The notes under the pieces: generated by a model | Database searches by the model: none | Told to the model about the DNA's origin: nothing | The model's input: the letters and a program-made list of their open reading frames with translations, nothing else | Program-made: the position numbers and the translations under genes | Shown: positions 52,636 through 64,000 of the stretch, in pieces | Layout: every line of letters starts with the position of its first letter | Numbering within the stretch: the first letter of the stretch is position 1 | Assembly (NCBI GenBank): GCA_016180645.1 | Contig: JACPAV010000018.1 | Span: 1 to 64,000 of the forward strand | DNA from: Nitrospirota bacterium | GTDB taxonomy: Bacteria > JACPQY01 | Reading direction: 5' to 3' | DNA: 64,000 nucleotides

Positions 52636-54282
52636 TTGAATCCTTGTGGAAGCGGGGCGACCGTACGGCGCGTCGATCGGGATCCACCCAATGAATTGGT
52701 AGGCGCCGTACTCGTGGCAGAGCAGAGGTCGCACGATCTGCGCCGTTGGCAGGGTCAGAGCTACTTGGCGCAGCTTGAGATCCTTTACGAAATCAGCAAG
52801 ACGTTCCGCCAAAACCTCAAGCCGCAGGAGCAGATCCGTCGGGGACTCCACGTGCTCTCCGAAATGCTTCATCTGAAGCGGGCAATTTTCGTGGTGGAGG
52901 ATGGCCGGAGCGGCCTTCTACGGATCACTGAGGGCTACGGCCTCTCGCCGGAGGAACGCCAGCGGGCAAGTTTCAAATCCGGTGAAGGACTGATCGGACA
53001 AGCGTTCAAGAACGGCTCGCCGATCGTTGCCTCGCTCGCGGATTCGAGCCGCGAGCCGCTGCCATGGGATCATGCACAATCCTGGTCGGGGGAACGGAAA
53101 TGGGGCTTCCTCGCCGTTCCGATCAGAACCACCGAGCGCGTGTGTGGCGTGTTGGCGCTTGAGTACGAGGCATCGGAGGGGCTTCCGACCCAGGAGTTGA
53201 CGCGTCTCATCTACTCCGTCTGCAATTTTTGGTCGAAACTTCTGACGCCGACTCCTCCCGAATCCATGCCGGCGAAATCCTCGATCGCCCCGAAGGGAAA
53301 GAGGCACGCCATGGAGCGGCTGGTCGGCGAGAGCCGAGCCATGCACAAGATCGTCGAATTGATCGCCACGGTGAGCCATGCCAAGACGCCGATTCTCCTC
53401 CGGGGCGAAAGCGGCACGGGGAAGGGGCTTGCGGCCGAGACCATTCACCAATCGAGCCGATACTCCAGAGGGCCGTTTGTGAAAGTCGTGTGCGCATCGA
53501 TCCCGGAGGCGCTCTTCGAGAGTGAGCTTTTCGGCTATCACAAAGGGGCATTCACCGGGGCGCTGAGGGATAAACCCGGTCTGGTGGAGACCGCCTCCGG
53601 TGGATCGCTGTTTCTGGACGAGATCGGCGACATTCCCCTGCCTGTGCAGGTGAAACTTCTCCGGTTCTTACAGGAGAAGACCTTCGAACGGCTGGGTGGA
53701 ACCCGGCCGCTGCGCGTCGACACACGGGTCATCGCCGCCACGAATCAATCTCTGGAAGATCTGGTTCGGAGAGGACTACTCAGAGAAGATCTCTACTACC
53801 GACTGAATGTTCTGCCGATCACGCTGCCGCCTTTGCGGGAACGGGTGGAAGACATCCCGATCCTCGCGGCGTTCTTCCTCGATGCGGCCAATCGCGAGCA
53901 CGCGAAGGACGTGAGCCTGACAGCGGAGGCCATCCAAATGCTACGGGAATACTCGTGGCCGGGGAACATCCGAGAGCTCGAAAATTTCGTCGAAAGACTC
54001 GTCGTTTTGTCACCGGGCGGCGCGGTTCGACCGGAAAATATCGTGCTGCACGGGCTCGACCCGCATCAAACACCACGCCCCGCCACCGCCCTTTCCACGG
54101 AACCCTCTCCACCGTCTCTCGGAACGCTCCGTGACCTGGAACGCGAGAAGATCGTTGAAGCACTACGGCAGGCCGATGGAGTTCAAGAGAAAGCCGCGCG
54201 ACTTCTCGGGATCACCCGGCGCCAGATCGGACACCGGATCAAGAAGTTCGGTATCCGGCGCGATCCGACACCGTTTCAGTAG
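52636..54282 (+). CDS. sigma-54-dependent activator (GAF-AAA-Fis), probable nitrate/nitrite regulator
   Basis: 548 residues. GAF domain (about 45-190: LHVLSEMLHLKRAIFVVEDG), sigma-54 interaction AAA domain with Walker A R-G-E-S-G-T-G-K-G (about 255-263), the sigma-54 contact loop G-A-F-T-G-A (about 309-314), Walker B G-G-S-L-F-L-D-E-I-G-D (about 326-336) and arginine fingers. A Fis-type helix-turn-helix is at the end (AARLLGITRRQIGHRIKKFG). This is NifA/NorR architecture. It lies directly upstream of narK, so it probably switches on the nitrate locus in response to a small molecule bound by GAF. The N-terminal start is uncertain. Confidence 0.88.
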   Translation: MNPCGSGATVRRVDRDPPNELVGAVLVAEQRSHDLRRWQGQSYLAQLEILYEISKTFRQNLKPQEQIRRGLHVLSEMLHLKRAIFVVEDGRSGLLRITEGYGLSPEERQRASFKSGEGLIGQAFKNGSPIVASLADSSREPLPWDHAQSWSGERKWGFLAVPIRTTERVCGVLALEYEASEGLPTQELTRLIYSVCNFWSKLLTPTPPESMPAKSSIAPKGKRHAMERLVGESRAMHKIVELIATVSHAKTPILLRGESGTGKGLAAETIHQSSRYSRGPFVKVVCASIPEALFESELFGYHKGAFTGALRDKPGLVETASGGSLFLDEIGDIPLPVQVKLLRFLQEKTFERLGGTRPLRVDTRVIAATNQSLEDLVRRGLLREDLYYRLNVLPITLPPLRERVEDIPILAAFFLDAANREHAKDVSLTAEAIQMLREYSWPGNIRELENFVERLVVLSPGGAVRPENIVLHGLDPHQTPRPATALSTEPSPPSLGTLRDLEREKIVEALRQADGVQEKAARLLGITRRQIGHRIKKFGIRRDPTPFQ

Positions 54283-54375: not shown

Positions 54376-54514
54376 AACACCACCGTACGCTTCTGTACCT
54401 CCGTACAAAAGCGTGCCACGTGCACGTGAAGGAATGAGTTCTGTTTATCGGAGTGGACGGGCGCATCTTTTCTCCTGTTCTTTCAACTCATTTGGCACGA
54501 CGCGACTGGACCTC

Positions 54515-54542: not shown

Positions 54543-55778
54543 ATGAGTGCAAACCTGAAGGAAGCTCTTCGGAGCGGCCACTTCCCCTCGCTGGTTGCGG
54601 CCTTCCTGTTTTTCGACATGAGTTTCATGATCTGGGTTCTCCTGGGTCCGCTCGGAAATCACATTTCAGCGGAACTCGGGCTATCGCCATCGCAGAAGGG
54701 ACTCCTGGTTGCGATTCCGATCCTCGGCGGCGCATTTTTCCGAATCTTCATGGGCATCCTGACCGATTGGATCGGCCCGAAGAAATCCGCCCTGTTGGCG
54801 ATGACGCTGACTCCCCTTCCGCTACTCTGGGGCTGGCTCGGCGCGGAGCGATTCGGCGAGATCCTAGGTGTAGGCCTTCTACTGGGAATTCCCGGCGCCA
54901 GTTTCGCCGCGGCACTCCCGCTCGCTTCGAGGAACTATCCGGCGAAGCATCAGGGACTCGCCATGGGGCTTGCCGGCGCGGGAAACAGCGGAACGGTCCT
55001 GACCGCCCTCTTCGCGCCGCGACTGGCCGACGCCTTCGGATGGAATGCCGTGATGGGGCTGGCCCTGATTCCACTCGTCCTCGTGTTTGTGGCCTTCTTG
55101 CTCCTCGCGCGGGAGCCCGTCCTGCCTCCCAGAAAAAAGCTCTCGGGCTATTTTTCGATTCTTGCCGAAGGGGATCTCTGGTTCTTCAACCTGTTCTACA
55201 GTTTGACGTTTGGCGGGTTCGTCGGTCTCGGCTCTTTCCTGCCCATTTTCTTCCACGATCAATACGGCGTTTCGAAAGTCATGGCCGGAACGCTGACGGC
55301 CTTCTGCGTCATGTCAGGATCTTTTCTCAGACCGGTGGGCGGAGCCTTGGCCGATCAAACCGGTGGACTCCGGGCCCTGTCGCTCTTCTTCTCGGTCGTT
55401 GCCGTGCTCATCCTGGGACTCGCCTGCCTTCCGACCTTGGGTGTGGCGGTGGCGCTGGCATTCCTTACGCTCGGGGTTCTCGGCCTGGGCAACGGGGCAG
55501 TCTTCCAACTTGTGCCGCAACGATTTCGGGACGAGATCGGCGTGGCCACCGGCTGGATCGGGGCGGCCGGAGGCGTCGGCGGGTTTTGTCTACCTCCGCT
55601 GCTGGGTGTGCTGAAGGAGACGCTAGGGACGTATGCCGCCGGTTTCGGGGCGTTCGCCGTGGGGATTGTTTTCTGCGCGGGGGTCCTGCGCTTCGTCCGG
55701 AAGGACTGGGAGAGATGGTCGGGTTCGTCCCGTGAAGTCCGCTCGGAAACGGTCCTGGTGTCAGTCGGAGGGCGATGA
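54543..55778 (+). CDS. narK: NarK-type nitrate/nitrite transporter (MFS)
   Basis: 411 residues from ATG 54543, preceded by TTGGAGGTCTAC. The frame extends to 54453 without a ribosome site. It has twelve hydrophobic segments with NNP-family motifs: FFDMSFMIWVLLGPLG (TM1), R-I-F-M-G-I-L-T-D-W-I-G-P-K-K (loop 2-3) and the glycine-rich nitrate signature G-L-A-G-A-G-N-S-G-T (TM5), then A-G-G-V-G-G-F-C-L-P (TM11). It imports nitrate for the reductases encoded downstream. 80 bp separate it from the nitrite reductase gene. Confidence 0.9.
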   Translation: MSANLKEALRSGHFPSLVAAFLFFDMSFMIWVLLGPLGNHISAELGLSPSQKGLLVAIPILGGAFFRIFMGILTDWIGPKKSALLAMTLTPLPLLWGWLGAERFGEILGVGLLLGIPGASFAAALPLASRNYPAKHQGLAMGLAGAGNSGTVLTALFAPRLADAFGWNAVMGLALIPLVLVFVAFLLLAREPVLPPRKKLSGYFSILAEGDLWFFNLFYSLTFGGFVGLGSFLPIFFHDQYGVSKVMAGTLTAFCVMSGSFLRPVGGALADQTGGLRALSLFFSVVAVLILGLACLPTLGVAVALAFLTLGVLGLGNGAVFQLVPQRFRDEIGVATGWIGAAGGVGGFCLPPLLGVLKETLGTYAAGFGAFAVGIVFCAGVLRFVRKDWERWSGSSREVRSETVLVSVGGR

Positions 55779-55784
55779 CGTGAA

Positions 55785-55859
55785 CCCCGCACCTATCCTT
55801 GGGACACCGCGAGGTCCGTCTCGGTGCTTGAAGATACGACGGCTAGGATAGGTACGGGG
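55785..55859 (+). promoter_or_regulatory. RBS-sequestering stem-loop leader of nitrite reductase
   Basis: CCCCGCACCTATCCT (55785-55799) pairs with AGGATAGGTACGGGG (55845-55859) at 14 of 15 positions. The right arm covers the Shine-Dalgarno-like region and the first base of the GTG start. Inside, CACCG/CGGTG forms a second hairpin. The structure would block initiation, as in a riboswitch, thermosensor or protein-controlled leader. Confidence 0.6.
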
Positions 55860-58800
55860 TGAACAAGGTCGAAGTTTTGAAGGCCGAGAAGGACGGACTG
55901 GATTCCCTGTGGGACATCTATCGATTCGCGGAGCGGGGCGGCGGCAGCATGACGGAATCCGATGCGCAGAGGATGAAATGGTACGGCGTATTCCAACGAA
56001 ACCCGACGCCCGGATTCTTCATGATCCGCGTCCGCATGACGAACGGCCTCTCGAACGCAGAGCAATTTCGAGTGCTGGCCGATCTCGCCGACGAGACTGG
56101 GCGGGGATTCGTCCACCTCACCACCCGCCAGCAGGTCCAGCTCCGGTGGGTGGCCATCGAGCGGGTGCCGGAAATCTTCGCGCGGCTCAAGAGCGTCGGT
56201 CTCCACGCGATGCAGACGGGAATGGACAACGTTCGCAACATCTGCGGCTGTCCGGCGGCGGGTCTCACTCCACAGGAACTTTTCGATGCGGCGCCCGTGG
56301 CACAGGCACTCGCGAACACCTACCTCGGCAATCCGCTGTACTCGAATCTACCCCGCAAGTTCAACGTCTCCATCACGGGTTGCTTGGAAAATTGCACGCA
56401 CGCCGAGACGCAGGACCTCGCACTGGTCCCTGCCCTTTCGCCGGACAGTTCGCGTACCCCGGGATTCAACGTGCTCGTGGGGGGGAAAAACGGCTCGGGC
56501 GGATACCGGCCTGCATCGCCACTGAACGTATTCGTCACACCCGACGAAGCCGTGGGTGTGTGTCTCGCCATACTCGCCCTGTACCGGGATTTCGGTCACC
56601 GCGAACAGCGCAATCGGGCCCGTCTTTCGTTCCTGCTGGATGAGTGGGGCACGGAACGATTCAGGTTGAAAGTTGAAGAGCGCGTCGGACGGAAGCTGGC
56701 GGGCGAGGGTGAAGACCGGCGTTCGACCCGGCGGCATGTCGATCACGTCGGCGTCCTCCGGCAGAAACATGCGGGACTCAACTACGTCGGTCTCACCGTT
56801 CCCGTCGGCAAAATGACCACCGCTCAACTCCGCGAAGCCGCCCACCTGAGCGAGGCTTATGGCGACGGCGAGATCCGCCTCACGAGCAACCAAAATCTGA
56901 TCCTCCCTCACGTGCCCGACGCCAAACTCGGCTCGCTGTTGGAGGAGCCCTTTGTGAAGGAGTTTCCGTATGCGCCCACCGAGATCATGCGGGGGTTGGT
57001 CGCCTGCACGGGCACCGATTTCTGCAATCTGGCCGTCATAGAAGTGAAGGACATCGCGATCCAGACCGCGCGCGCACTGGAAGCGCGACTCCCGTCCACT
57101 CAACCTCTTACGATGCACTGGTCCGGCTGCCCGGCGGGATGCGGGAACCATCAGCAGGCGGACATTGGTTTTCTCGGAAAGAAGATCAAGATCAATGGGA
57201 CGGTTCAGGATGGCGTGGACATCTTCGTCGGCGGACGTTCGGGGCCCGGAGCCACACGTCCCCTCCGGGTGATCGAAGACATCCCCGTGGGGGAGGTCGA
57301 GGATTTTTTGGTTTCAATGGTGAAGTATCACCCGCGCGAGAAACTGGTCGAGGCGCTGCGGAAGAGAGGGCGGGAGGTTTCCTTGGATGGAAATCCCACG
57401 AACCGTTCGAGCGGTTCAGTCAACCCCCCATCGGCCGCGTCAATCGCCACCCTTCGCCAGGACGACATTCCCTCATCGGGTGCGGCGGTCACATCGTTGG
57501 GCGGCAAACCCGTTGCGGTGCTCAGGAATGCCGGTCGCCTGTGCGCCTTTTCGAATGTGTGTCCCCACGAGAATGCCCCGCTTGATGAGGGCGTCGTGGA
57601 TGGCGATGAAATCATTTGTCCCTTGCATGCCTACCGATTCAGCTTGACCACCGGGGCGTGCAGTACCGTGCCCGGGCTCAGCCTCGAAATCTATGATGCC
57701 GCCGAGAGCGCATCGGGAGAAATTACGGTTCGGGAGCGTTCAGCCGAACCTTCAGGGACTCCGGCCCCTCCGGCACTCACCACTTGGAGTTGCCGGTCGT
57801 GCCGTTTCGAACAGAAAGGGGAAAGGCCGCCGACGATTTGCCCCGTGTGCGCTTCGGGAACGGACCAATTCTACGCTGGCACGGAGCCTGCAAAAGCGGC
57901 GACGCGGGATCGGAGCGGCAAACGGGTCGTCATTGTGGGTGGGAGCATCGCGGCCCACGTCGCCGCGCAAACGTGCCGGCAGGTCGACCCTGAGGCGCAT
58001 GTGCAGATCATCACCGATGAAGCGGTGTCTTTTTACAATCGATTGGGCCTCACACGGTGGATGTCCGACGAAATCCAGGAGACCCACCTCTTCGACTATT
58101 CACCCGATTGGTACGTGACGCAGGGGATCGAGGTGGTGACGCGGAGCCGCGCCGTTGCCCTCGACCCGGTCCTACGTCGCCTCATGCTTTCTACCGGTCA
58201 GGAGATCGGTTTCGATGTCCTCATTCTGGCGCACGGGAGTGGGGCGTTGACCCCGCCGTTCTATCGTGGGGCGACTCCCGGAGCTTACCTGCTGCGCACG
58301 CTGGAAGATGTTCGCGGTATTCTTGCCGCTGCTTCGGAGGCCACCCGCGCGGCGGTGATCGGGGGGGGGGTGCTGGGGCTCGAAGCAGCCCACGGGCTGC
58401 TGAAGCGAGGTGCCCGCGTATCGGTGTTTGAGTATGCCGCTCACCTCATGCCCCGCCAGCTCGATGCGGAGGCCGCGGGATTGCTCGCAGCCTACATATC
58501 CTCGAAGGGCACTCACGTCCATGTCGGGGCGGGGGTTGCCGCGCTGGAATCCAGCGGGACGTCGTACCTGATTCGGACGACGGACGGTCGCGAGTTCGAG
58601 GCCGATCTCGTGGTCGTTTCCACGGGCATCAAGCCCAATATCGACTGGGTCTCCGCATCCGGCATCCGTTGCGAGCGCGGCATTCAGGTCGACGATCGGA
58701 TGAAGACCTCCAGCGATTCGGTCTATGCCGCGGGAGATGTCACCGAGTGGAGGGGCCAGGTGGTGGGGTTGTGGGCGAACGCGATCGAGCAGGCGCGCGT

Positions 58801-59152
58801 GGCGGCGGCCAACGCCATGGGCCAAGAGAAGCGATTTTCGGGTTTCATCCCGGCCACCATCCTGAAATGTTGGGACTACCCGGTGTTTTCCATTGGGGAA
58901 ATCGCTCCCATTCCCGCACCCTCCGCTGCCGTTCCTGGCGCTTCGGGGAGCAACGGTACAGAGTCAAAAACCTTCTTGGACCCGGTGAAAAAGGTATATC
59001 GGCGGATCGACTATCGGCATGGCCTCCCCATCGGGGCCATCCTCGTCGGTACCCGGGAGGGGACGGCCGAGCTGAAGAAACTGGTGGAATGGCGACTCCA
59101 AATCCAATCGATCGAGACCAAGCTGTTCGGGGATCACGCGGCCGAAGCGTAA
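55859..59152 (+). CDS. single-chain nitrite reductase: NirA-type sirohaem domain, Rieske, rubredoxin and FAD/NAD reductase
   Basis: 1097 residues from GTG 55859. Residues 1-510 are a ferredoxin nitrite/sulfite reductase (two repeats; HLTTRQQVQLRWV; sirohaem/4Fe-4S Cys in CTGTDFC, 382-388, and GCPAGCG, about 422-428). Residues 525-625 are a Rieske domain (C-P-H at about 567, C-P-L-H at about 587). Residues 640-670 are rubredoxin-like (C-R-S-C, C-P-V-C). Residues 690-1000 are an FAD-NAD(P) reductase (V-V-I-V-G-G-S-I-A-A, VIGGGVLGLEAAHGLL, VYAAGDVTEW). It reduces nitrite to ammonia with electrons probably from NAD(P)H through internal carriers. NirB has the opposite order (FAD first). A run of ten G lies at 58371-58380. 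Confidence 0.85.
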   Translation: MNKVEVLKAEKDGLDSLWDIYRFAERGGGSMTESDAQRMKWYGVFQRNPTPGFFMIRVRMTNGLSNAEQFRVLADLADETGRGFVHLTTRQQVQLRWVAIERVPEIFARLKSVGLHAMQTGMDNVRNICGCPAAGLTPQELFDAAPVAQALANTYLGNPLYSNLPRKFNVSITGCLENCTHAETQDLALVPALSPDSSRTPGFNVLVGGKNGSGGYRPASPLNVFVTPDEAVGVCLAILALYRDFGHREQRNRARLSFLLDEWGTERFRLKVEERVGRKLAGEGEDRRSTRRHVDHVGVLRQKHAGLNYVGLTVPVGKMTTAQLREAAHLSEAYGDGEIRLTSNQNLILPHVPDAKLGSLLEEPFVKEFPYAPTEIMRGLVACTGTDFCNLAVIEVKDIAIQTARALEARLPSTQPLTMHWSGCPAGCGNHQQADIGFLGKKIKINGTVQDGVDIFVGGRSGPGATRPLRVIEDIPVGEVEDFLVSMVKYHPREKLVEALRKRGREVSLDGNPTNRSSGSVNPPSAASIATLRQDDIPSSGAAVTSLGGKPVAVLRNAGRLCAFSNVCPHENAPLDEGVVDGDEIICPLHAYRFSLTTGACSTVPGLSLEIYDAAESASGEITVRERSAEPSGTPAPPALTTWSCRSCRFEQKGERPPTICPVCASGTDQFYAGTEPAKAATRDRSGKRVVIVGGSIAAHVAAQTCRQVDPEAHVQIITDEAVSFYNRLGLTRWMSDEIQETHLFDYSPDWYVTQGIEVVTRSRAVALDPVLRRLMLSTGQEIGFDVLILAHGSGALTPPFYRGATPGAYLLRTLEDVRGILAAASEATRAAVIGGGVLGLEAAHGLLKRGARVSVFEYAAHLMPRQLDAEAAGLLAAYISSKGTHVHVGAGVAALESSGTSYLIRTTDGREFEADLVVVSTGIKPNIDWVSASGIRCERGIQVDDRMKTSSDSVYAAGDVTEWRGQVVGLWANAIEQARVAAANAMGQEKRFSGFIPATILKCWDYPVFSIGEIAPIPAPSAAVPGASGSNGTESKTFLDPVKKVYRRIDYRHGLPIGAILVGTREGTAELKKLVEWRLQIQSIETKLFGDHAAEA

Positions 59153-59205: not shown

Positions 59206-60684
59206 GTGGATGTGGGCAAATGCATTGGTTGCAACGCTTGCATGGTCGCCTGCAACGAACAACACGGAAATCCGTCCAACCTCTTCTGGAGGCGCGTGGG
59301 TGAATGCGAGATCGGCTCCTACCCCGAAGCGAGACGGCTCTTCACCTCCATGGCGTGCAATCACTGCCTCGATCCCGCCTGCCTCAAGGGCTGTCCGACG
59401 GAGGCGTACGTCAAAAACCCGCGAACGGGCATCGTCCGCCACATCGATGAGGAATGTATCGGCTGCGAGTATTGCGTCTGGAATTGCCCCTACACCGTGC
59501 CTCAGTACGATAAGGCCCGTCACATCGTCACCAAGTGCGACATGGGTTTTGAGGAGCTGATGAACGACCAGTGGCCGGCGTGCGTGAGCACGTGCCCCAC
59601 CGATGCCCTGGCCATCGAGACCGTTGACACACGGGAATGGCGTGAACGACCGGACTCGGGTGACGCCCCGGGTCTCCCTTCGGTACGGATGACGTACAGC
59701 ACGACCCGGTTCTCGTTTCCAGACGGACGTTCCTCCGCCGGGACCGATTTGCTCCATGGGGACCATGCGGTGGCCGCCCGATTTCGGCTCCATCCCGAAA
59801 AGCCGCATCTCCCGCTGGTGCTCTTCACCGTGTTGACGCAAATGGCCGTCGGCACCCTCTTCATGTTCTGGGTGGCCCGGCTGCGTTCGGCGCCCGACCC
59901 CGTTTCGGCGAACACGATCTTGCTGCCCCTCTCGATCGTGATGCTGTCACTCCTCGCCGCCACGCTCCATTTGGGAAGGCCCTTGCGCGCGTACCGGGCG
60001 CTGAGGAACTGGCGACACTCCTGGCTGAGCCGCGAGATCGGATCGTTTGGCGCGTTTGCAGCGCTGACGACCGCCGCGGTGCTGATTCCCAAAGTGTGGT
60101 CTACCCTGCCCTCCGCAACCCTCCGCGTTCTGGAGGGATGCGCCGTCCTTCTGGGTCTGGCCTCCCTCTACTGCACGGCCCGGATCTACCGCGTGCCCGC
60201 CCGGCCTTCGTGGGATTCCCCCCGCACCACGGCTTCGTTCCTGCTCAGTTCACTGATTCTCGGCCCGGCCCTCGCGGGTGTGTTGGTCGCGTGCGTTCCC
60301 TCCTGGACGCCGGCCCGATCACTGGATTTCGCCGAACTCTGCCGATGGGTGACGTTGGGCGCCGCCGCGACCTTGCTGGCCATGGAGCTGGTCTGGCTGA
60401 TATTGACTCGCCGCGACTCGCGACGCGAAATCCAAGGGACCCGGTCTCTGCTTTTCACGGATTTTCTGAACCATGCGGCCGTCCGCATTCTCATGCTGAT
60501 CGTCGGCGGCATCCTCCTTCCTCTCGGGGTCTCCGGTCGGCTGAATCCCCTGCTTGTTGCCATCGGCCTCGGCTTGCTCCTCGCCGGCGAGCTGATGGGC
60601 CGATATCTGTTTTTCGTCACCGTGGTTCCCATGAGTATTCCCGGAACGATCCCCGGAACACCCTTCAGCCGGCGCCTGCCATGA
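59206..60684 (+). CDS. DmsB-DmsC fusion: 4Fe-4S ferredoxin subunit joined to membrane anchor
   Basis: 492 residues if started at GTG 59206. In-frame CTG codons at 59164 and 59176 would add the FHV strand usually found before the first cluster. Residues 1-170 are a four-cluster DmsB/NarH-like protein (CIGCNACMVAC, CNHCLDPACLKGCP, CIGCEYCVWNCPY, CVSTCPTDA). Residues 200-490 have eight or so membrane helices of DmsC type (PLVLFTVLTQMAVGTLFMFW, L-H-L-G-R-P). It should pass electrons from quinol to the nitrate reductase. CCGGAG-N6-CTCCGG at 59182-59199 overlaps the ribosome site. ATGA overlap with the next gene. Confidence 0.85.
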   Translation: MDVGKCIGCNACMVACNEQHGNPSNLFWRRVGECEIGSYPEARRLFTSMACNHCLDPACLKGCPTEAYVKNPRTGIVRHIDEECIGCEYCVWNCPYTVPQYDKARHIVTKCDMGFEELMNDQWPACVSTCPTDALAIETVDTREWRERPDSGDAPGLPSVRMTYSTTRFSFPDGRSSAGTDLLHGDHAVAARFRLHPEKPHLPLVLFTVLTQMAVGTLFMFWVARLRSAPDPVSANTILLPLSIVMLSLLAATLHLGRPLRAYRALRNWRHSWLSREIGSFGAFAALTTAAVLIPKVWSTLPSATLRVLEGCAVLLGLASLYCTARIYRVPARPSWDSPRTTASFLLSSLILGPALAGVLVACVPSWTPARSLDFAELCRWVTLGAAATLLAMELVWLILTRRDSRREIQGTRSLLFTDFLNHAAVRILMLIVGGILLPLGVSGRLNPLLVAIGLGLLLAGELMGRYLFFVTVVPMSIPGTIPGTPFSRRLP

Positions 60685-62873
60685 CAGTAGGTCCACTCTG
60701 GCGAAAACTCCGGTCGTGGATCGGAGAGTCCGAGCTGCTGAGTCGCGAACGGATGGGGAAGGATTCCCGCTTCGGAGTCATGGCCGCCGACACGATCCCG
60801 GATCGGTGGGTACAAACGGTGTGTGGCTATTGCTCCGTCGGCTGCGGGATGTATGTGGGTGTCAAGAAGGGTGAGGCCGTGGCCGTCAAAGGCGATCCGA
60901 AATATCCCGTGAACGAGGGGAAATTGTGCCCGAAGGGACTCTCCGAACACCACACCCTCCGAGCACCCTCTCGCGCACGCGCGCCCATTCTCCGGGGAGC
61001 GGATGGAAAACCGCACCCGATTGGATGGGACGACGCCTTGGATCTATTTCTCGGTCGCGTTCGCAGCCTCCAATCTCGATATGGATCAGCGGCGTTTGCC
61101 GTGCTCAGTACCGGACAACTGGTCACGGAGGAATTCTACGCGCTGGGAAAGCTGGTCCGACTCGGAATGCGCGTGCCGGATTTCGACGGAAACACCACGC
61201 TCTGCATGGCGAGCGCCGTGGCCGGATACAAGCGTTCGTTCGGGAGCGACGGTCCACCCGGGAGTTACCTCGATTTCGAAACGTCCGATGTCATCCTTCT
61301 CGTCGGAGCCAACATCTACGATAATCATCCGATTCTGACGCACCGCCTGGCGAAAAACCCGAAGAAGACGGTCATCGTGGTCGATCCCCGCGCTTCGAAG
61401 ACGGCACTCCTCGCGGATCTCCACCTCCCCATCCGACCGCGTTCGGATCTTGCCCTGTTCAACGGCCTCGCCTATATCCTTCTCCGCGAAGGTTGGATCG
61501 ATCGTCGGTACGTGTCCGAGCACGTGGACGGATTCGACGCCCTCCGGGAGCATCTGGCCGCGTATCCTCCTGAACGCGTGTCGGAAATCACGGGTCTCAC
61601 ACCGGAACTGATCATGCGGGTGGCGCGACTCTACGCTGAGGCGAAGCGACCCTTGATCGCCTGGACGATGGGCGTGAACCACAGCGACCAAGGCACGGAG
61701 ACGGTCAACGCGATCAACAACCTCGCCCTCCTCACGGGGAATGTGGGGAAGGAAGGGGCCTCGCCTTTTTCCATCACCGGACAATGTAACGCCATGGGGA
61801 CGCGCGAGGCAGGATTCACGTCCAGCCTCCCCGGATACCGAGCGTATGACGACCCCGTTTCGCGCAACGAACTGGCCCGGCTGTGGGGAATCGGGCCGGA
61901 AGAACTGCCGGCTGCGCGTGGTCGCGCCTACCCGGACATCATCAACGCCGTCATCGACGGCCGAGTCAAGGGATTGTGGATCATTGGAACGAATCCCATT
62001 GCCTCGTTCCCGAATCTGGCCAACACAGAGGATGCCCTCTCACGACTGGAGTTTCTCGTCGTTCAGGATGGCTTCTACCCCACTCCCACGGCGGAGCGCG
62101 CTCACCTCTTCCTGCCCGCCGCGATCTGGGGTGAAAAGGAAGGCACGTTCACCAACTCGGAGCGCCGCGTGGGGCGTGTGCGTGCGGCCGTTCCCCCCGT
62201 GGCCGGATGCCGCACCGATTTCGACATTATTCTCGATCTGGCGCGGCGCGCGGGTTGGGCCGATCGGCTCTTTCCCGGCTGGACCACCCCGGAGGATGCC
62301 TTCAATGAATGGGCACGGGTCAGCCGGGGCAGGCTGTGCGACTATTCGGGCATGAATTACGGTCGGCTCGACCGGGAGGGAAGCATCCAATGGCCCTGCC
62401 CGGACCACGACCGCCCCGGAGATGAGCGATTGTATTCCAGCGGCGAGTTTCCGACCGCCACGGGCCGGGCGAAACTGTGGTGTGTCGACTGGGCCGAACT
62501 CCCGGAGGAACCGCGCCCCGAGTTCCCCTTCATCCTCAATACCGGACGAACCGTGGAACACTGGCACACACGCACCAAGACGCGCGAGGTCGAAATCCTC
62601 GAAACGCTCTCACCGGAAGCGTGGGTGGAAGTGAACCCCAGGGATGCCGCGCGACTCCGGATCCGGGACCGCCAGCGGATCACCCTCCGATCCCAGCGGG
62701 GAAGCGTGTCCGGAATCCCGGCTCGAATCACTGAAACGGTCGCGCCGGGTCAGGTCTTCGTCCCCTTTCACTTTTTCGAAACGAACGCCAATGCGCTCAC
62801 CCTCAACACATTCGATCCCCTTTCCCGTGAACCCAACTACAAACAGTGCGCCGTTCGGATTGAACCCGTCTGA
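60681..62873 (+). CDS. molybdopterin nitrate reductase catalytic subunit (NarB/NasA-like)
   Basis: 730 residues from ATG 60681, overlapping the DmsBC stop. There is no Tat signal, so it is cytoplasmic. The 4Fe-4S site is C-G-Y-C-S-V-G-C-G (about 48-56) plus L-C-P-K-G (about 80). The Mo-ligand Cys lies in T-L-C-M-A-S-A-V (about 174), as in NapA/NarB. Pterin-binding regions are ILLVGANIYDNHPI, F-S-I-T-G-Q-C-N-A-M-G-T-R-E-A-G and the C-terminal molydop-binding domain (WVEVNPRDAARLRIRDRQRI). It reduces nitrate to nitrite for the nitrite reductase upstream, probably fed by the membrane-bound DmsBC fusion. Confidence 0.9.
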   Translation: MTVGPLWRKLRSWIGESELLSRERMGKDSRFGVMAADTIPDRWVQTVCGYCSVGCGMYVGVKKGEAVAVKGDPKYPVNEGKLCPKGLSEHHTLRAPSRARAPILRGADGKPHPIGWDDALDLFLGRVRSLQSRYGSAAFAVLSTGQLVTEEFYALGKLVRLGMRVPDFDGNTTLCMASAVAGYKRSFGSDGPPGSYLDFETSDVILLVGANIYDNHPILTHRLAKNPKKTVIVVDPRASKTALLADLHLPIRPRSDLALFNGLAYILLREGWIDRRYVSEHVDGFDALREHLAAYPPERVSEITGLTPELIMRVARLYAEAKRPLIAWTMGVNHSDQGTETVNAINNLALLTGNVGKEGASPFSITGQCNAMGTREAGFTSSLPGYRAYDDPVSRNELARLWGIGPEELPAARGRAYPDIINAVIDGRVKGLWIIGTNPIASFPNLANTEDALSRLEFLVVQDGFYPTPTAERAHLFLPAAIWGEKEGTFTNSERRVGRVRAAVPPVAGCRTDFDIILDLARRAGWADRLFPGWTTPEDAFNEWARVSRGRLCDYSGMNYGRLDREGSIQWPCPDHDRPGDERLYSSGEFPTATGRAKLWCVDWAELPEEPRPEFPFILNTGRTVEHWHTRTKTREVEILETLSPEAWVEVNPRDAARLRIRDRQRITLRSQRGSVSGIPARITETVAPGQVFVPFHFFETNANALTLNTFDPLSREPNYKQCAVRIEPV

Positions 62874-63018: not shown

Positions 63019-64000
63019 ATGGATTTGGTGGACCGATTCGGCCGTGTACCGCGCGACTTGCGAATTTCCGTCACCGAGCGTTGCAATTTCCGCTGCACCT
63101 ATTGCCTCCCGGAAGAGGAGCATCTTCACGGTGGCCGCCCCCCCCTTCTGAGTTTTGAAGAAATCGACCGGCTTGCGCGACTTTTCGCGGAACGCGGAAT
63201 CCGGAAGTTCCGGCTGACGGGAGGCGAACCGCTGCTCCGAAAGAACCTTCCGGATCTCGTCGCGAAACTTTCGAGTATGGCCGGCATTGAAGACTTGGCG
63301 CTCACAACGAATGGATTTTTTCTGGCCGAGGTGGCCAGAGACCTGGCCGGAGCCGGTCTCAAGCGAGTCAGTGTCAGCCTCGATTCACTTCAGCCCGACG
63401 TATTCGCCCGGCTCACCGGGCGCCGGGCCCTGAATCGGGTGCTTCAAGGCCTCGATGCGGCGCGCGCCGCGGGCTTTTCTCCCATCAAGCTCAACACCGT
63501 GCTCATTCGCGGAGAAAACGACGGAGAAATCCTCAACCTCGTGGATTTCGCGCGCGAGACCGGCTGTCCGATCCGATTCATCGAATTCATGCCGCTTGAC
63601 TCCGGCCGGGAGTGGACGCGCGATCGGGTCGTCCCCACGGACTTCATTCTCGAAGCCATCTCCGCACGATTCCCTCTCGTGCCGGTGATCCCTCGAACCG
63701 CCTCGGAAACCGCCCGGTGTTTCGCGTTCGAGGACGGCAAGGGTGAAGTCGGGTTCATCGCCTCGGTGACCCGGCCCTTCTGCGCCCATTGCAACCGGCT
63801 TCGGCTGACGGCGGACGGCCGGCTCCGAACGTGCCTCTTCGCGCACACGGAAATCGACCTGTGCACGCCGCTTCGACGATCTGCGCCCGATGAGGAAATC
63901 CATGCCCTCATCGTGAACGGCGTCTACGGGAAGGAGTGGGGACACCGGATTGCCGAACCCGACTTTTTGCCTCCGCAGCGTGGGATGGTCAGAATCGGCG
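63019..64000 (+). CDS. moaA: GTP 3',8-cyclase MoaA, cut by window end
   Basis: 327 codons visible, missing only the last few. From ATG 63019: M-D-L-V-D-R-F-G-R-V-P-R-D-L-R-I-S-V-T, radical-SAM cluster C-N-F-R-C-T-Y-C (about 23-30), F-R-L-T-G-G-E-P-L-L (SAM), SVSLDSLQPDVFARLTGR and the C-terminal second cluster F-C-A-H-C-N-R-L-R-L-T-A-D-G-R-L-R-T-C-L-F. It makes the first molybdopterin intermediate, needed by the nitrate reductase upstream. The frame is open further upstream, but only this start fits the family. A REP-like element abuts the start. Confidence 0.93.
   Translation, partial: MDLVDRFGRVPRDLRISVTERCNFRCTYCLPEEEHLHGGRPPLLSFEEIDRLARLFAERGIRKFRLTGGEPLLRKNLPDLVAKLSSMAGIEDLALTTNGFFLAEVARDLAGAGLKRVSVSLDSLQPDVFARLTGRRALNRVLQGLDAARAAGFSPIKLNTVLIRGENDGEILNLVDFARETGCPIRFIEFMPLDSGREWTRDRVVPTDFILEAISARFPLVPVIPRTASETARCFAFEDGKGEVGFIASVTRPFCAHCNRLRLTADGRLRTCLFAHTEIDLCTPLRRSAPDEEIHALIVNGVYGKEWGHRIAEPDFLPPQRGMVRIG

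Follow-up and report, generated by a model that had tools for sequence, protein, structure and literature searches.

Introduction

The ferredoxin-nitrite reductase NirA of plants, cyanobacteria and bacteria draws its electrons from free ferredoxin. NirB/NirD, fused NirBD and the fungal NAD(P)H-nitrite reductase perform the same reaction with flavin adenine dinucleotide (FAD)/NAD(P)H, sirohaem and Rieske parts; the eukaryotic NAD(P)H enzyme is reported to have most likely originated in Planctomycetes (PMC6400420). In Paracoccus, NasB, NasG and NasC form an NADH-FAD-Rieske chain in nitrate assimilation, and one Rieske protein there is described as supplying both the nitrite and the nitrate reductase (PMC5424462; also PMC4724949). 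Here we describe a gene in a 64,000-nucleotide stretch of Nitrospirota DNA (contig JACPAV010000018.1, positions 1 to 64,000; hereafter the window) that joins a NirA-type sirohaem reductase, a Rieske domain, a rubredoxin and an FAD/NAD(P)H reductase. Its product likely serves nitrate assimilation as a self-sufficient nitrite reductase that draws on NAD(P)H, with activity, order of electron transfer and cofactor preference predicted from sequence.

One gene encodes four redox modules

The fusion is encoded by a single uninterrupted gene. Its open reading frame (ORF) runs for 1097 amino acids (aa) from a GTG start to a TAA stop with zero internal stops, and codon-position GC content holds one frame throughout the ~3.3 kb, most weakly over the Rieske/linker stretch. 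Linkers rich in Pro, Ala, Ser and Thr separate the modules, and a motif scan found all expected cofactor ligands. Alignments of stand-alone NirA relatives begin at residue 1, so the GTG start is probably correct. An earlier note on this DNA had proposed these four parts in this order; ORF and Pfam analyses agree with it, coordinates included. We looked for a separating stop or frameshift, and for loss of the Rieske and rubredoxin cysteines in homologues, and found neither: the frame is intact and the ligands are kept in all relatives found. These features identify the gene as a real, intact and self-contained NirA-type nitrite reductase fusion.

The catalytic half is a NirA module of two repeats. 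In Pfam, NIR_SIR (173 bits) and NIR_SIR_ferr (139 bits) each match it twice, and the [4Fe-4S]-sirohaem motifs are CTGTDFC at 383 (C-x5-C) and GCPAGC (GCPxxC). The module is 54–55% identical to bacterial stand-alone NirA and can be aligned with tobacco and spinach nitrite reductase (E ~1e-99). Its PRKFN sequence falls at tobacco PRKWN, and K-x-N is present in 65 of the 71 NirA rows of the alignment; one set of tobacco PDB sequences, evidently mutant, has Lys in place of the Asn. We take the Asn/Lys position to discriminate nitrite from sulfite enzymes, a use for which open-access searches found no paper. The only other PF01077 protein of the genome, on contig C33, reads PRKFK (K-x-K). The window protein is therefore most likely a nitrite enzyme and the C33 protein a sulfite enzyme.

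Two electron carriers follow. The Rieske domain scores 60 bits in Pfam (cut-off 20.3) and has the ligand pattern CPH-x16-CPLH at 568–590 (C-x-H-x16-C-x2-H). The rubredoxin (CRSC-x12-CPVC from 645, two CxxC knuckles) scores 22.8 bits against PF21349, just below the gathering cut-off of 26.5, which its counterparts in the relatives L129 (50.7 bits) and L130 (28.4 bits) exceed. Its cysteines are kept in all relatives found, and genome G739 carries the domain in duplicate. Structures were modelled in two parts, one covering the Rieske-rubredoxin region and one the C-terminal region. In the former, the Rieske part is a high-confidence prediction whose fold matches dioxygenase ferredoxins and NirD (Z ~14–16), and the rubredoxin has a predicted local distance difference test score (pLDDT) >90; the PDB matches listed for this model were Rieske structures. 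The window Rieske retains the four ligands that are absent from an Acinetobacter "NirD" (L100:7965-9575), a NirD-FAD fusion that adjoins a full NirB and has a Rieske-like domain without cluster ligands.

The C-terminal module resembles rubredoxin reductases. It contains Pyr_redox_2 (689–979, 178 bits) and Rubredoxin_C (998–1077, 27.9 bits against a cut-off of 25.9), with the Rossmann glycine motifs for FAD and NAD(P) and the two-dinucleotide fold. Foldseek matched its predicted structure to rubredoxin reductase, BphA4 and the reductases of putidaredoxin and toluene dioxygenase; BphA4, toluene dioxygenase reductase and rubredoxin reductase pass electrons to Rieske ferredoxins or rubredoxins. 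A rubredoxin gene adjoins six of the module's stand-alone relatives (L016, L021, L022, L025, L026 and L032), so rubredoxin and its reductase form a natural pair. The earlier note had called the internal rubredoxin unusual, which this adjacency partly explains. Within the C-terminal domain of the module lies, in frame, a short interspersed element (58911–58947, ~35–50 bp, core GCACCCTCCGCTGCCRTYCCTGGCGCTYCGGG) that encodes a PAPSAAVPGASG linker and is missing from the G739 relative; five more copies (L002–L006, on contigs C29, C3, C36, C47 and C9) include several that overlap long open frames.

The fusion is not a rearranged NirB/NirD, although the earlier note described it as one with reversed domain order. 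The two-repeat catalytic half of ~500 aa, the missing BFD domain (no Pfam match to Fer2_BFD in the window protein) and the FAD tree, in which every NirB-type FAD domain falls into one clade that excludes the window module (100/100), rule that origin out. The Rieske domain is a better match to PF00355, the general Rieske/dioxygenase-ferredoxin family, at 60 bits than to PF13806, the NirD family, at 39 bits. Against the NirB model TIGR02374 the protein reaches 309 bits, where the cut-off is 578.

Probably self-sufficient NirA fusions were assembled at least twice

Related enzymes occupy equivalent loci elsewhere. With the DmsB-DmsC protein encoded downstream of the fusion as query against 241 diverse genomes, we found the same operon slot in four of them. 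Its occupant is a fused NirBD in FAD-BFD-NIR-Rieske order in G234 and G096, separate NirB and NirD in G222, and a 968-aa NirA-rubredoxin-Rieske-FNR protein in G137. The FNR form recurs in two more genomes of the G137 phylum (G822 and G608, 66–68% identity), and G739, of the same phylum, encodes a 1275-aa Rieske-Rieske-NirA-rubredoxin-rubredoxin-FAD protein. In all, four other genomes have NirA fusions with both carriers and a flavin module, none in the exact order. All four fusions lie with NarK and NasC genes, and three of them also with a DmsB-DmsC fusion; G739 has a DmsB-like frame, beside a NasC-like gene, a NarK-like gene 54% identical to that of the window and a related sigma-54 activator. 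Other members of the G137 phylum encode NirA alone (L132, L135) or fused NirBD followed, before DmsBC, by a separate FNR gene (L133, L134, L136; 257–273 aa), a homologue of the G137 FNR module. If that phylum is the Planctomycetes, the fused NirBD of L133, L134 and L136 would agree with the origin reported for the eukaryotic enzyme. The FAD-first all-in-one nitrite reductases (FAD-BFD-NIR-Rieske) of sister operons measure 989–1123 aa.

Phylogenies indicate at least two separate assemblies of putatively self-sufficient NirA, in which modules were shuffled and both carriers always kept. The window NirA groups with stand-alone NirA from two other phyla (100/99), and the NirA modules of the four other fusions form their own clade (100/100). 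Forcing all five into one clade is rejected by the approximately unbiased (AU) test (p-AU 2.5e-7), which rules out common inheritance of all NirA fusions. The window FAD module, by comparison, is sister to that of G739 (100/99; 52% identity). On these trees, the G739 protein appears to combine two sources, with NirA-rubredoxin as in G137 and rubredoxin-FAD as in the window. The history of these enzymes is thus best described as module shuffling, not permutation of NirB.

The position of the carriers appears to depend on the flavin module. Rubredoxin stands next to the FAD module resembling NADH:rubredoxin oxidoreductase (NROR), and Rieske next to FNR. FNR-type flavoproteins are a known kind of partner for Rieske proteins, as in dioxygenase systems, so the carrier-swapped FNR form suggests, from few independent proteins, that each flavin module has its cognate carrier placed beside it.

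The exact architecture is rare in the sample searched. We queried, with the window protein or its C-terminal part, 386 relatives, the phyla of G006 (77), G040 (84), G222 (52), G096 (5) and G137 (392 genomes), and the class of G739 (23), a partial sample; no set held a second genome with the window order, and the rubredoxin-FAD module was common only to the window and G739. No such fusion turned up in the two phyla whose stand-alone NirA is closest (77 and 84 genomes), nor in those of G222 and G096. In 20 NirA neighbourhoods that we read, no FAD or Rieske gene of the window type adjoined NirA. Translated searches (tblastn) of plasmids returned NirA alone, together with NirD-FAD and Rieske-FAD fusions, none containing NirA. 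A peptide-pattern search over 85k species found no fusion, which is weak evidence of rarity because only six exact peptides were used. Searches of the open-access literature uncovered no account of a NirA joined to a Rieske domain, a rubredoxin or a flavin reductase.

The fusion lies in a nitrate assimilation operon

The sequence places the fusion in a cluster for nitrate assimilation and molybdenum-cofactor synthesis. All genes lie on the plus strand, in the order sigma-54 activator, NarK-like transporter, fusion, DmsB-DmsC, NasC-like reductase, MoaA and molybdenum-cofactor genes (Table 1). The NasC-like gene overlaps DmsBC by ATGA at 60681. Past the window end, Pfam annotation of L141 adds MobA, MoaE, MoaC-MoaB, a TauE-type transporter and MoeA.

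Table 1. Coordinates of the fusion gene, its modules and neighbouring genes in the window.
Feature	Position	Strand	Evidence
Sigma-54 activator (GAF-AAA-HTH_8), probable regulator	52636..54282	+	Pfam; homologues adjoin operons of G739 and G600
NarK-like nitrate/nitrite major facilitator superfamily (MFS) transporter	54543..55778	+	TIGR00886 259.7 bits, below cut-off 311.7
All-in-one nitrite reductase gene, NirA - Rieske - rubredoxin - FAD/NAD(P)H reductase	55859..59152	+	Single ORF, Pfam, codon pattern
NirA-type sirohaem nitrite reductase module, residues 1-500, two repeats	55859..57358	+	PF01077/PF03460 twice; alignment to tobacco/spinach nitrite reductase
RKFN motif, Lys-x-Asn, nitrite-type active site	56354..56365	+	Alignment with tobacco nitrite reductase RKWN
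[4Fe-4S]-sirohaem Cys ligands C383, C389, C424, C428	57005..57142	+	Motif scan; tobacco nitrite reductase cysteine alignment
Rieske [2Fe-2S] domain, residues 532-608	57452..57682	+	Pfam; invariant ligands C568, H570, C587, H590; fold match Z 14-16
Rubrerythrin-type rubredoxin domain, residues 643-671	57785..57871	+	PF21349; Cys 645, 648, 661, 664
FAD/NAD(P)H reductase module	57923..59089	+	Pfam; Foldseek BphA4/rubredoxin-reductase fold; sister to G739 FAD
DmsB-DmsC fusion, 4Fe-4S protein and membrane anchor	59206..60684	+	DmsC 103 bits, Fer4_11; start inferred from sequence
NasC-like molybdopterin assimilatory nitrate reductase	60681..62873	+	Pfam/NCBIfam; groups with DmsBC-linked NasC
moaA, first of molybdopterin biosynthesis run	63034..64000	+	Pfam on L141

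Several features of the neighbourhood stand out. NasC without an evident twin-arginine translocation (Tat) signal, together with a DmsB-DmsC fusion, recurs across several phyla (59206–62873; L103–L106, L130–L136). The pair is possibly a quinol-linked assimilatory nitrate reductase, of which literature searches found no description. NasC proteins from DmsBC loci cluster together, apart from those of NirA-NarK-NasC loci; that of G739 is a long branch. Between narK and the fusion gene, a hairpin at 55785–55859 (15-bp arms, one mismatch) would enclose both the GTG start and the ribosome site. Its predicted energy is −38.1 kcal/mol (z −2.2), which 6 of 200 shuffled sequences equalled or bettered, Rfam gave no match to it, and translational control is a possible role. 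Just before narK, near the sigma-54 activator gene, a sigma-54-like −24/−12 element at 54514 (CGGCACGAATGTTGC) has 9 of 10 consensus bases; its spacing to the narK ribosome site is awkward, and we do not rely on it.

Electron supply and competing explanations

The order of modules suggests a path for electrons. NAD(P)H would reduce the FAD of the C-terminal module, and single electrons would then pass first to rubredoxin, next to the Rieske cluster and finally to the [4Fe-4S]-sirohaem centre of the NirA module, which would use six of them to reduce nitrite to ammonium. In this scheme the fused carriers would stand in for the diffusible ferredoxin of ordinary NirA. The path, close to the one given in the earlier note, is plausible and the most economical, and it fits the anatomy of the protein: read from the C-terminus, the modules follow in the same sequence.

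Three observations weigh against this reading. One is that the exact architecture comes from one genome only among those searched, as it would if an assembly or sequencing artefact had joined neighbouring genes. The 3.3-kb single frame with its steady codon pattern, the linkers at the junctions and the parallel fusion of G739, with its sister FAD module, speak against such an artefact, to which we give almost no weight. Another is that ferredoxin-nitrite reductase (NF007125), the best NCBIfam match, gives the whole protein 513.5 bits, under the NirA cut-off of 594; we therefore speak of a NirA-type module, not a NirA equivalog. NIR_SIR domains are common to both enzyme kinds, which would allow a sulfite or mixed reductase. 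That possibility too is very improbable, given the nitrite-type K-x-N motif, the setting in a nitrate operon, the identity of the best NCBIfam match and the K-x-K of the other NIR_SIR protein in the genome. Finally, rubredoxins often have potentials near 0 mV, which would make transfer to the sirohaem centre uphill, and the rubredoxin may therefore be a side entry or structural.

The last point leads to the role of the carriers. If the rubredoxin-like knuckle were a structural zinc or iron site, electrons would run straight from FAD to Rieske to NirA. In favour of this, the FAD fold resembles BphA4 and toluene dioxygenase reductase, both of which work with Rieske ferredoxins, and the motif scores just under the Pfam cut-off. 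The rubrerythrin-type spacing, the cysteines retained in all relatives, the duplication in G739 and the rubredoxin genes beside stand-alone FAD relatives make a purely structural knuckle unlikely. A somewhat stronger contender, though still doubtful, is that the FAD-rubredoxin-Rieske arm also or mainly feeds the neighbouring NasC, as NasB and NasG feed NasC in Paracoccus. Such a second role is possible because the Paracoccus Rieske protein serves both reductases; here too NasC and Nir share one operon, and sister operons (L133, L134, L136) hold their separate FNR gene between NirBD and DmsBC. NasC is, however, paired here with the DmsB-DmsC fusion, a possible quinol electron source, and this pairing persists where NirA has no flavin module (L132, L135). 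A self-sufficient nitrite reductase remains our preferred account. More tentatively, and with slightly less than even confidence, we propose a wider scheme: NirA was at least twice made ferredoxin-free by gaining Rieske, rubredoxin and one of two unrelated flavin reductases, the carrier order followed the cognate partner, and the arm may also power NasC.

Comparison with known systems

A self-sufficient NirA would have both mechanistic and practical interest. If the reading is true, a single gene equips a six-electron sirohaem enzyme with an NAD(P)H supply of its own, from modules swapped more than once. It makes testable which carriers the sirohaem centre accepts and why Rieske and rubredoxin are both kept. 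Hosts that lack a suitable ferredoxin could also be given, in one gene, an enzyme that turns nitrite into ammonium.

The window protein combines traits of several described systems. With NirA it shares the two repeats, the [4Fe-4S]-sirohaem centre and K-x-N, to which it adds two fused carriers and a fused flavin reductase. NirB/NirD and its fused and fungal counterparts differ in their FAD-BFD-NIR(-Rieske) order, single sirohaem repeat, lack of rubredoxin and FAD of another clade. The Paracoccus chain consists of separate proteins of the NirB type and feeds NasC as well. The C-terminal flavin module and carriers resemble NADH:rubredoxin oxidoreductase with rubredoxin, and BphA4/BphA3-type reductase with Rieske ferredoxin, but those pairs are separate proteins with other acceptors, such as oxygenases. 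If the proposed activity holds, the protein would parallel, among nitrite reductases, such self-sufficient fusions as P450 BM3.
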